NCBI RefSeq assembly: GCF_025947225.1
Contig: NZ_CP110005.1
Location: 868,001-932,000 of the forward strand
DNA: 64,000 nucleotides
DNA from: Flavobacterium sp. N2270
Lineage (GTDB): Bacteria > Bacteroidota > Bacteroidia > Flavobacteriales > Flavobacteriaceae
Direction: 5' to 3'
The notes under the pieces were generated by a model, which ran no database searches, was not told the DNA's origin, and saw nothing but the letters and a program-made list of their open reading frames with translations. This document shows, one piece after another, positions 36,038 through 38,489 of the stretch (positions within the stretch are counted from its first letter, which is position 1; every line of letters starts with the position of its first letter). The translations under genes and the position numbers were made by a program.

Positions 36038-37153
36038 ATGTTAACTGAAAAGGATTTTATTGCAACCCAATTTTCTTCTGTTGAAAAAGCAAACTTTAAA
36101 TGGAGTGCGCCAAGTAATATTGCTTTGGTAAAATATTGGGGAAAGAAAGAAAATCACTCGAGCCAAAATGGCGAACAGGCGAAGCAAATTCCTGCAAATC
36201 CTTCTATCAGTTTTACGTTGAACAACTGTAAAACGATTACTTCTTTAGCAGTAACTAGGAAAACAGACAATTCTGAAATTACATTCGATTTATTTTTTGA
36301 AGGCAAACCCAAAGAAGATTTTAAACCTAAAATTTTAAAATTCTTTCAAAGAATTGAGCAATATTGTCCTTATATAAAAGAATATCATTTTGTAATTGAT
36401 ACCGAGAACACATTTCCACACAGTTCGGGAATTGCGTCTTCTGCTTCGGGAATGGCAGCAATAGCCATGAATATAATGAGTTTAGAAAAAGAACTTAATT
36501 CAACAATAACAGATGATTATTTTTATCAAAAAGCTTCTTTTTTAGCCAGATTAGGTTCGGGAAGCGCGTGTAGAAGTGTAAAAGGCGAAGTGGTAATTTG
36601 GGGAAGACATTCAGTAACTGAAAATTCATCTGATTTATTCGGAGTTCCATTTGAAAATTTACATGCCAATTTTAAAAATTACCAAGACACTATTTTATTA
36701 GTAGATAAAGGTGAAAAACAAGTTTCAAGTACAGTGGGTCACAATTTAATGAAAGGACATCCATTTGCTGAGCAAAGATTTGAACAAGCGCACACAAATT
36801 TGTCAAAAATTAAGGCAATTTTATCATCTGGAGATATTGAAGAATTTGTTAAAATTGTAGAAAGTGAAGCCTTGACTTTACATGCTATGATGATGGCTTC
36901 GATGCCTTATTTTATTTTAATGAAACCAAATACTTTAGAAATTATTAATAAAATTTGGAGTTTTAGAAATGCAACGCAAACTCCAGTTTGTTTTACATTG
37001 GATGCAGGTGCAAATGTACATGTTTTGTATCCAGAAAATGTAAAAGATAAAGTTTTGCAATTTATTAACAATGAATTAGTTGGCTATTGCCAAAACGAGC
37101 AGTACATTTGTGATCAAATTGGAAATGGAAGTCAATTGATAATGAATAATTAA
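36038..37153 (+). CDS. mvaD: diphosphomevalonate decarboxylase
   Basis: 371 residues of a GHMP-kinase-fold enzyme that converts mevalonate 5-diphosphate to isopentenyl diphosphate. Recognised from SAPSNIALVKYWGKKE, FTLNNCKTIT, the phosphate loop FPHSSGIASSASGMAAIAM and ARLGSGSACRS; the catalytic aspartate lies in CFTLDAGANVHVL. The last codons (after IGNGS) and the stop come from the left arm of the inverted repeat that bounds the next gene, so the native C-terminus may have been altered. First gene of an isoprenoid operon. Confidence 0.94.
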   Translation: MLTEKDFIATQFSSVEKANFKWSAPSNIALVKYWGKKENHSSQNGEQAKQIPANPSISFTLNNCKTITSLAVTRKTDNSEITFDLFFEGKPKEDFKPKILKFFQRIEQYCPYIKEYHFVIDTENTFPHSSGIASSASGMAAIAMNIMSLEKELNSTITDDYFYQKASFLARLGSGSACRSVKGEVVIWGRHSVTENSSDLFGVPFENLHANFKNYQDTILLVDKGEKQVSSTVGHNLMKGHPFAEQRFEQAHTNLSKIKAILSSGDIEEFVKIVESEALTLHAMMMASMPYFILMKPNTLEIINKIWSFRNATQTPVCFTLDAGANVHVLYPENVKDKVLQFINNELVGYCQNEQYICDQIGNGSQLIMNN

Positions 37154-37165
37154 CAGTTGATAATG
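37134..37165 (+). repeat. left inverted repeat of the four-helix-bundle element
   Basis: 32 bases beginning AATTGATAATGAATAAT; 26 of 32 match the reverse complement of 37512-37543. The arm contains the mvaD stop (37151-37153) and the ATG of the four-helix-bundle gene (37163-37165). Confidence 0.65.
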
Positions 37166-37513
37166 GAGAAGAAAAACGTTATTAAAGACAAAACTTTTGA
37201 GTTTGCTAAAGAAATTGTATATCTTTATAAAGATTTGGCTGATAAAAAAGAGTTTGTTTTGTCTAGACAATTGTTGCGTTCAGGTACGTCAATTGGTGCA
37301 AATGTTCGTGAAGCAGAACATGCACAGAGTAAAGCCGATTTTATTCATAAGCTATCAATTGCTCTTAAAGAAGCAAATGAAACAGAATATTGGTTAGATT
37401 TGCTGTTTGAAACAGGCTTTTTAAAAGAAGAGTGTTTTCAAAATAATAAATTAAAAATAATTGAAATATTAAAGTTACTTATCAGTATAATAAATACTTC
37501 AAAGAAACAATAA
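37163..37513 (+). CDS. four helix bundle protein (23S rRNA intervening-sequence family)
   Basis: 116 residues from MEKKNVIKDKTFEF; a TTG two codons earlier is less likely. It has the family signature LSRQLLRSGTSIGANVREA and the helix SIALKEANETEYWLDLLFETG. Relatives occur inside 23S rRNA intervening sequences of spirochaetes and as scattered small genes in Bacteroidetes; their role is unknown. Here it sits inside an isoprenoid operon, bounded by 32-bp inverted repeats that hold its start and stop codons. That suggests recent insertion. Confidence 0.9.
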   Translation: MEKKNVIKDKTFEFAKEIVYLYKDLADKKEFVLSRQLLRSGTSIGANVREAEHAQSKADFIHKLSIALKEANETEYWLDLLFETGFLKEECFQNNKLKIIEILKLLISIINTSKKQ

Positions 37514-37543
37514 TTATTAATTGTCCATTATTAATTATCAATT
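37512..37543 (-). repeat. right inverted repeat of the four-helix-bundle element
   Basis: The reverse complement begins AATTGATAATTAATAAT and mirrors 37134-37165. It covers the end of the four-helix-bundle stop codon and ends 7 bases before the mevalonate kinase ATG. Confidence 0.65.
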
Positions 37544-37550
37544 AAAAGAT

Positions 37551-38489
37551 ATGAAAGGCCCTTTATTTTATTCTAAAATATTACTTTTTGGCGAATACGG
37601 AATTATAGAAGATTCGAAAGGATTGTCTATTCCTTATAATTTTTACAAAGGAACTCTAAAGGTTTCTGAAAACCCTTCAAACGAAGCTATTAAGTCTAAC
37701 GAAAGTTTATTGCGATTTGCATCTTATTTAAGTCAAATGCAAAAAGATAAACCAGAATTGGTTTCTTTTGATTTGGCTGCTTTGAAAAACGATGTTGCTA
37801 GCGGAATGTATTTCGATTCTAGTATTCCTCAAGGATATGGAGTAGGAAGTAGTGGGGCTTTAGTTGCTGCTATATATGATAAATACGCAACAGATAAAAT
37901 CACGGTTTTAGAAAATCTAACGAGAGAAAAATTATTGAAATTAAAAACAATTTTTTCTAATATGGAATCTTTTTTCCATGGTAAAAGTTCTGGATTAGAT
38001 CCTTTAAACAGTTATTTAAGTTTACCTATTTTAATTAATTCTAAAGATAATATTGAACCAACAGGAATTCCTTCTCAAAGTGTTGATGGTAAAGGAGCTG
38101 TTTTCTTAATAGACTCAGGAATTGTTGGTGAAACTGCACCTATGGTTACTCTTTTTATGGAAAGTTTGAAAGATAATGGGTTCCGTAAAATGTTAAAATC
38201 TCAATTCATAAAATATACTGATGATTGTGTGGAAAACTTTCTACACGGAGATGTTAAATCACTTTTTGCAAATACAAAAAAACTATCTAAAGTTGTTTTA
38301 AGTCATTTTAAACCAATGATTCCAGAACAATTTCACCAAGTTTGGCAAAAAGGCATTGATACAAACGATTACTATCTTAAGCTTTGTGGTTCTGGTGGTG
38401 GAGGTTACATTTTAGGCTTCACCCAAGATATCGATAAAGCAAAAGAATCTTTAAAAGACTATAAATTAGAAGTAGTTTACCAATTTTAA
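37551..38489 (+). CDS. mevalonate kinase-like GHMP kinase
   Basis: 312 residues from MKGPLFYSKILLFGEYG. The frame is open 10 codons further but those are inverted-repeat sequence. GHMP kinase motifs: KILLFGEYGII near the start, the phosphate-binding loop PQGYGVGSSGALVAAIYD, and the third motif KLCGSGGGGYILGF near the end. With mvaD upstream and a prenyltransferase downstream, mevalonate kinase is the best call; phosphomevalonate kinase is an alternative. The stop abuts the next ATG directly. Confidence 0.88.
   Translation: MKGPLFYSKILLFGEYGIIEDSKGLSIPYNFYKGTLKVSENPSNEAIKSNESLLRFASYLSQMQKDKPELVSFDLAALKNDVASGMYFDSSIPQGYGVGSSGALVAAIYDKYATDKITVLENLTREKLLKLKTIFSNMESFFHGKSSGLDPLNSYLSLPILINSKDNIEPTGIPSQSVDGKGAVFLIDSGIVGETAPMVTLFMESLKDNGFRKMLKSQFIKYTDDCVENFLHGDVKSLFANTKKLSKVVLSHFKPMIPEQFHQVWQKGIDTNDYYLKLCGSGGGGYILGFTQDIDKAKESLKDYKLEVVYQF

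Follow-up and report, generated by a model that had tools for sequence, protein, structure and literature searches.

The closest described counterparts of the element analyzed here are the 23S rRNA intervening sequences (IVS) of Coxiella and Leptospira, which harbor an S23p/IVP frame. In the Coxiella IVS, as described in PMC4990558, this frame is preceded by tandem heptamers (GACAGAT) and enclosed in a terminal inverted repeat that forms a 28-bp stem, in which RNase III cuts; an idea, once proposed, that the frame serves mobility is cited in the same source. Members of the protein family concerned (PF05635) resemble, in both sequence and structure, the Avd protein of diversity-generating retroelements, which is required for retrohoming, according to the account in PMC10053308.

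Here, we analyze a stretch of 64,000 nucleotides from Flavobacterium sp. N2270 (the window), in which a gene encoding a four helix bundle protein (IVP) lies between inverted arms in the space separating an mvaD-type from an mvk-type gene (Table 1). This cassette shares with the 23S IVS, insofar as PMC4990558 describes them, its protein family, a frame closed in by terminal inverted repeats able to pair as RNA, tandem heptamers ahead of that frame (in Coxiella), and a patchy, partly horizontal distribution. Unlike the 23S IVS, it sits between the protein genes of an operon and not in an rRNA gene, and its arms, which are AT-rich arrays, double as the source of stop, start and end codons for its neighbors; because the anatomy is alike but the place is different, we do not class it as a 23S IVS. 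Terminal inverted repeats are equally a feature of DNA transposons and MITEs, and the cassette resembles MITEs and other small transposon derivatives in being short, bounded by inverted repeats and accompanied in the genome by gene-less relatives, but it carries, when complete, a small non-transposase gene, and its ends are tandem arrays of variable length. The IVP is the only gene of the unit, and profile searches matched it to no transposase family, to 0 families in PADLOC (anti-phage defence) and to 0 in PHROGs (phage proteins). No account of such IVP arms, apart from that of the Coxiella IVS, was found in the open literature, and the repeat letters gave only an unrelated match there; preprints and most subscription journals lie outside this scope, so that this is weak evidence of novelty.

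Table 1. Features of the mvaD-mvk region, in positions of the window.
Feature	Position	Strand	Basis
mvaD-type gene (diphosphomevalonate decarboxylase family)	36038..37153	+	Pfam MVD-like_N and MDD_C
Promoter-like TTG-N20-TACATTTG in the mvaD 3' end	37080..37110	+	Pattern and low synonymous divergence
Left arm, AATTRAY unit array, with mvaD stop and IVP ATG	37134..37165	+	
IVP gene (four helix bundle protein), 116 aa	37163..37513	+	PF05635, TIGR02436
Right arm, inverted AATTRAY unit array	37512..37543	-	
mvk-type gene (GHMP kinase; mevalonate kinase-like)	37551..38489	+	PF00288

The IVP belongs to its family by both available profiles (PF05635, 105.5 bits against a cut-off of 33.8; TIGR02436, 108.1 bits against a cut-off of 24), and has solved relatives in PDB entries 2rld (E 1e-38) and 2gsc (E 2e-4). 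The mvaD-type gene scores 164.3 bits with TIGR01240, just under the cut-off of 171.35, and the mvk-type gene 63.1 bits with TIGR00549, under the cut-off of 163. An earlier sequence-only reading of this DNA had reported that the left arm and the reverse complement of the right arm agree at 26 of 32 positions, including the first 10, which is correct; the mismatches fall at positions 11, 18, 19, 23, 26 and 32, and a repeat search returns the pair as 31 nt at 84%. It had also correctly placed the mvaD stop codon (TAA, 37151-37153) and the IVP start codon (37163-37165) within the left arm, and the last codons of mvaD are indeed written within the left array. On the right, the arm does overlap the IVP stop codon (TAA, 37511-37513), by two bases, but the statement that it abuts the kinase ATG was slightly loose, as this codon begins 7 bp past the arm. 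What that reading missed is the makeup of the arms: in both, a 7-bp unit, AATTRAY, is repeated in tandem, and the two arrays are inverted relative to each other. Both arms are AT-rich and of low complexity, and AT-rich sequence might have produced the inverted match by chance; however, when the two 100-bp flanks were dinucleotide-shuffled 1000 times, no inverted match over 32 positions exceeded 23, so that 26 was reached by none of the 1000, and the arms are conserved in 30/30 best relatives at the mvaD-mvk slot. Shuffle and conservation counts together refute a chance origin, the probability of which we regard as negligible.

The mvaD-mvk junction was read in 136 genomes of the genus, comprising 123 from an even draw (in which 132 genomes have an mvk match) and 13 IVP genomes added from outside the draw. 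The slot holds an IVP in 18 of the 123 even-draw genomes, with both arrays called in 17 (in the remaining genome, Ns separate the right array from mvk), a RelBE-like pair in 22, an antitoxin-like frame without partner in 12, a class that rests on weak matches, and another frame in eight (in one case a MazF-like frame flanked on the right by arrays); these RelBE-like, antitoxin-like and MazF-like calls represent our own reading plus tblastn with the frames of one locus (L040), rather than profile matches. In eight further genomes mvk does not adjoin mvaD. The slot is empty in 55 of the 123, seven of which keep a single array (≤3 mismatches in 21), and IVP-less junctions of the kind that the sequence-only reading had proposed to look for in relatives are present. 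The best 30 IVP matches of 299 genus genomes all lie at mvaD-mvk with arrays on both sides, the left array ranging from 3 to about 18 units. Across the 136 genomes, the slot (window 37154-37550) is a swap site with the conserved promoter-like site ahead of it, occupied, depending on the species, by an IVP, by RelBE-like pairs or antitoxin-like frames, by a MazF-like pair (G067) or by a small membrane-type frame (G072, G086, G098, G137). In several IVP-less relatives (L037, L062, L123, L130, L156, L165), a motif of 7-bp period, ACTGTAA/ACTGAAT, is visible by eye just before the mvk ATG.

Other Flavobacteriaceae (records titled Mariniflexile, Tamlana, Gramella, Christiangramia and Lutibacter) likewise carry the cassette flanked by mvaD and mvk, which argues that the cassette is old at this place. 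The sequence-only reading had pictured a precise mobile cassette, and had named as grounds for rejecting it either the presence of gene and arms at this locus across distant Flavobacteriaceae, or a lack of arm copies elsewhere. Gene and arms are shared by other genera at this locus, which makes up half of that case for rejection; the arms do recur in this genome and in others. The part of the picture that stands is that gene and arms act as one cassette, and the part that falls is a recent insertion, since other Flavobacteriaceae share it.

On a tree of mvaD and mvk (from a short search, with 38 open forks of 133 and nine rows having under half of the columns), cassette presence takes at least 26 changes for 31 occurrences, and close relatives differ at the slot (an IVP in G106, a RelBE-like pair in G065). 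Distances correlate at 0.58 between IVP and mvaD, 0.30 between IVP and mvk, and 0.61 between mvaD and mvk. The slot pattern fits descent with many losses plus exchange, and exchange of the cassette is plain among three species (G014, G112, G139) whose cassette windows are 87-97% identical, versus 73-88% for mvaD and 71-88% for mvk (with G014, the left arrays are too unequal in length for scoring). At 4-fold sites, G014 and G112 differ by 0.17 in the IVP, versus 0.56 in mvaD and 0.62 in mvk. Two of the 31 slot IVP frames contain a stop, so the IVP protein is dispensable. Comparison of genomes shows an old resident at mvaD-mvk, patchily distributed, often lost, and sometimes exchanged among relatives.

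Searches with window-IVP peptides yielded near kin at 80 or more loci in named genomes, and 78 of the 80 listed were usable; this set includes a 100% identical copy (L203), whose genome is probably this one or a very close relative of it. For several further loci, the genomes are probably among those that gave the best 30 slot matches in the genus, while a partial gene (L247) and a contig that is too short (L254) were left out of the arm counts, the IVP period tree and the arm-likeness pair test. Among the matches listed, AATTRAY arms stand on both sides of the gene in 44/44 kin with mvaD or mvk in their flanks; of the 34 kin located elsewhere, 31 have both arms, one the left only, and two neither. 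The same test placed 700 bp away gave, among the matches listed, 0/44 and 0/29, respectively. By our own reading of the neighbors, the cassette precedes an araA-like gene in a Bacteroides faecis record, and lies between cysD- and cysN-like genes in a Parabacteroides MAG, where the right arm codes for the start of the second gene; in Flavobacterium sp. I-STPP5a (L278), it lies between cobalamin genes. A record of Citrifermentans bremense, the only one outside the Bacteroidota on which we rely (some MAG titles, e.g. Rickettsia, Anaerolineales, Nitrospira and Sphingobacterium, may be wrong), has a GC content of 63-66% in the flanks, 45% in the gene and 32-35% in the arms. When 198 phylum genomes were searched with a profile, the ten highest-scoring loci other than that of the window all carried AATTRAY arms on both sides (10/10), and all 29 phylum loci examined divide into 14 with both arms, three with the left only, one with the right only, and 11 with neither, several of which show arrays of other units by eye. 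Placement is operon-like: 113/131 IVPs are co-directional with both neighbors, as a raw count from simple frame finding, which also gives a median distance of 60 bp from the upstream stop to the IVP (n = 118).

Of 121 genus genomes, only G079 (L310) has the gene that lies downstream of the cassette at L278, and it provides a second empty site: no IVP lies between its cobalamin genes, and its flanks are 91.7% (1322 bp) and 91.2% (2431 bp) identical to those of L278. This pair does not give a clean empty target: about 176 bp of other, hairpin-like sequence replaces about 500 bp. The replacement (about 176 bp) contains a GTCATTCCGA... motif together with its inverted partner, which by eye is a different repeat. 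Among 758 pairs of loci without outside likeness, there were no near-identical cassettes, none exceeding 77% DNA identity, so that jumps to new sites are rare or old in this sample; loss and exchange at the old site are common.

IVP genes are present in 99/101 genus-sample and 116/148 phylum-sample genomes; the genome studied here has five. We examined 60 IVP loci of other subfamilies (4 from this genome, 29 from the genus, 27 from the phylum); the best 30 genus loci and the best 27 new phylum loci are top scorers rather than a random sample, and one locus (L082) is too short for the periodicity test. An AATTRAY pair was found at 0/60 of these loci, though several of the host genomes hold such arrays. 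We had considered the arms to be a peculiarity of the mvaD-mvk slot (AATTRAY lies near 0 of 30 other IVP loci, the one hit, at L074, being 256 bp off), and dropped this reading, as arrays built of different units stand at those loci. Their flanks are periodic: of the lags from 4 to 13, the best is 7 or 8 in 50/60 upstream and 49/60 downstream flanks, versus 7, 8 and 11 of 60 in three control regions. Upstream and downstream arms of one locus match in inverted orientation at a mean of 17.1 of 21 positions, versus 14.1 between loci and 13.7 in control flanks, with 18 or more of 21 matching at 27/60 loci versus 1/60 control flanks; a locus's own downstream arm is the best or tied for 36/60 loci, and the within-locus mean was reached by 0/2000 permutations.

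Among 138 IVPs, kin among the matches listed included, both arms have the same period in 112/113 callable cases, the period being callable on neither side for 5/138 and on one side only for 20/138. The period, 7 or 8, changes four times on the IVP tree, versus 24-28 times in 30 shuffles; this tree is built on a small number of columns, leaves many forks open, and often represents a single locus by rows from several species, so that pairs without homologous neighbors (4115 of 4371) provide the stronger test. At such unrelated loci, arms match at 17 or more of 21 positions in at most 2% (left) and less than 1% (right) of pairs when IVP identity is below 0.5, in 32% and 22% when it is 0.5-0.6, in 55% and 51% when it is 0.6-0.7, and in 62% and 77% of the 13 pairs at 0.7 or above; the upstream control stays at or below 0.3%. 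Arm likeness thus tracks IVP likeness, and gene and arms go together at unrelated loci too. Correlating arm likeness with IVP identity across 72 loci proved worthless, as a control region correlated equally (0.353 and 0.338; control 0.352): many of the pairs compared one locus with its counterpart in another species. Comparison shows that the sequence and length of the array unit go with the IVP subfamily, and that gene and arms stay together at unrelated loci, mostly between co-directional genes.

Further copies of the arms, for which the sequence-only reading had proposed a search, do exist in this 2.79-Mb genome: the AATTRAY pattern, with three or fewer mismatches, gives 27 hits (overlaps counted) at 13 other places, versus 0 for the reversed control, and a separate search added one more place. 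Among the five IVP genes of this genome, only the window gene has AATTRAY arms. As far as read, no IVP lies between the arrays at 13 of the 14 array places of the first search (that of the window included), one of which consists of two inverted arrays with nothing between. The other sites are intergenic, in four identical 23S-5S spacers, and inside frames read as aroA, mnmE, GSCFA-type and prmC-type. The array between 23S and 5S rRNA is identical in four rRNA operons (L018, L021, L023, L024), and matches to the Flavo-1 sRNA (RF01705) were seen near two of these (L024, 962-1042; L023, 425-501). Arrays inside core gene frames encode peptides such as IINCQL (G000:C1:317290-317321, L025; 2379677, L032; 2786486, L027; 1273682, L030). 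At one aroA place, relatives lacking the array have equal length, as if the array had overwritten sequence, which rules out its simple insertion there; another array place adds 5-7 residues.

A candidate promoter, TTG-N17-23-TAnnTTTG, which we take to be the promoter form of this bacterial group, occurs in the mvaD 3' end in 124/127 linked slots, the three exceptions being among the eight slots with another frame. Such a site inside mvaD would start an IVP-mvk message just before the left array, which forms the predicted leader of the window IVP message. Synonymous divergence per 15 codons is 0.29 and 0.23 in the mvaD 3' end versus 0.36-0.55 elsewhere in mvaD, and 0.32 at the mvk start versus 0.39-0.53 elsewhere in mvk; these low values at the slot edges may reflect promoter and initiation constraint, or recombination. 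The arms could form an RNA duplex of -23.6 kcal/mol that closes the IVP frame in the predicted fold, and arm pairing is stronger than the mean of its own shuffles in 29/29 genomes (2 of 31 omitted for Ns). Covariation of the two arms was looked for in the slot genomes and not found, and arms from the same genome pair slightly worse (-23.1) than arms from different genomes (-24.2), so that a selected stem is not supported, and the stem may simply follow from the shared 7-bp unit.

We consider it probable that gene and arms form one cassette-like unit, a selfish element built like the 23S rRNA IVS but residing in protein-coding operons, with an IVP that recognizes its own array and is mobilized in trans. 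Comparison across loci shows the IVP gene and its two inverted 7-bp arrays to be a single unit in inheritance and exchange. The element would be transcribed from the promoter inside mvaD, and its arms would pair in the RNA, yielding a stem that encloses the IVP frame; mvaD and mvk would stay readable, since codons and start sites are contributed by the arms. The IVP, which forms a five-subunit ring in a solved relative, would recognize its own kind of array, as RNA or as DNA. We know of no catalytic domain in this protein, which may be moved or copied by a partner in trans, the catalyst being borrowed, and gene-less arrays may be products or leftovers of the same process.

Synonymous divergence that is minimal at the mvaD 3' end and the mvk start, close relatives that hold different small genes in the slot, and the fact that a recent cassette jump was not seen would all suit an immobile, vertically inherited cassette, in a slot where homologous recombination between the conserved mvaD and mvk ends creates a hotspot for the exchange of small genes, with arms that serve as a local regulatory or terminator-like structure. 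We judge this account possible but on the whole unlikely, as it leaves unexplained the recurrence of this gene with these arms at unrelated loci, the cassette on DNA of foreign composition in the Citrifermentans record, and the other IVP subfamilies with other arrays.

A further reading takes the arrays as dispersed repeats that spread and expand on their own, with IVPs sitting where they are tolerated; at mvaD-mvk, an IVP would have landed in arrays or been overgrown by them, and arms would be shared because gene and flank descend together. The majority of AATTRAY places here do lack an IVP, including the rRNA spacers and the core-gene interiors, and array length is strongly variable. Moreover, a net excess of two or more AATTRAY hits is found in 32/179 phylum genomes that lack a window-type IVP scoring at least 160 bits, which shows that such arrays can exist without one. 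The same excess is nevertheless commoner with a window-type IVP (16/19 genomes; Fisher p 9e-9, in a count raised by the arms of the IVP itself), the type of arm goes with the IVP at unrelated loci, and AATTRAY arms are absent from all 60 IVPs of other subfamilies, several of them in genomes that hold such arrays. This second alternative strikes us as improbable.

Beyond the selfish cassette that we favor, we tentatively raise a broader possibility, to which we would give well under even odds: IVP cassettes may constitute a general class of mobile elements, found in the Bacteroidota but not confined to them. A small ring protein, itself non-catalytic, would read its cognate array of 7- or 8-bp units (one kind of unit per subfamily) and direct a partner acting in trans, which could be a reverse transcriptase on the model of Avd, to copy into operons either the gene with its arrays or the arrays by themselves; the 23S rRNA IVS would be one special landing place. 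That each subfamily keeps its own kind of repeat wherever seen offers a cheap and direct test of IVP function, in which binding to its own array is compared with binding to that of another subfamily. If true, the pairing of IVP and array would explain the 7-bp repeats scattered through these genomes, some of them in core genes, and would link them to rRNA intervening sequences.
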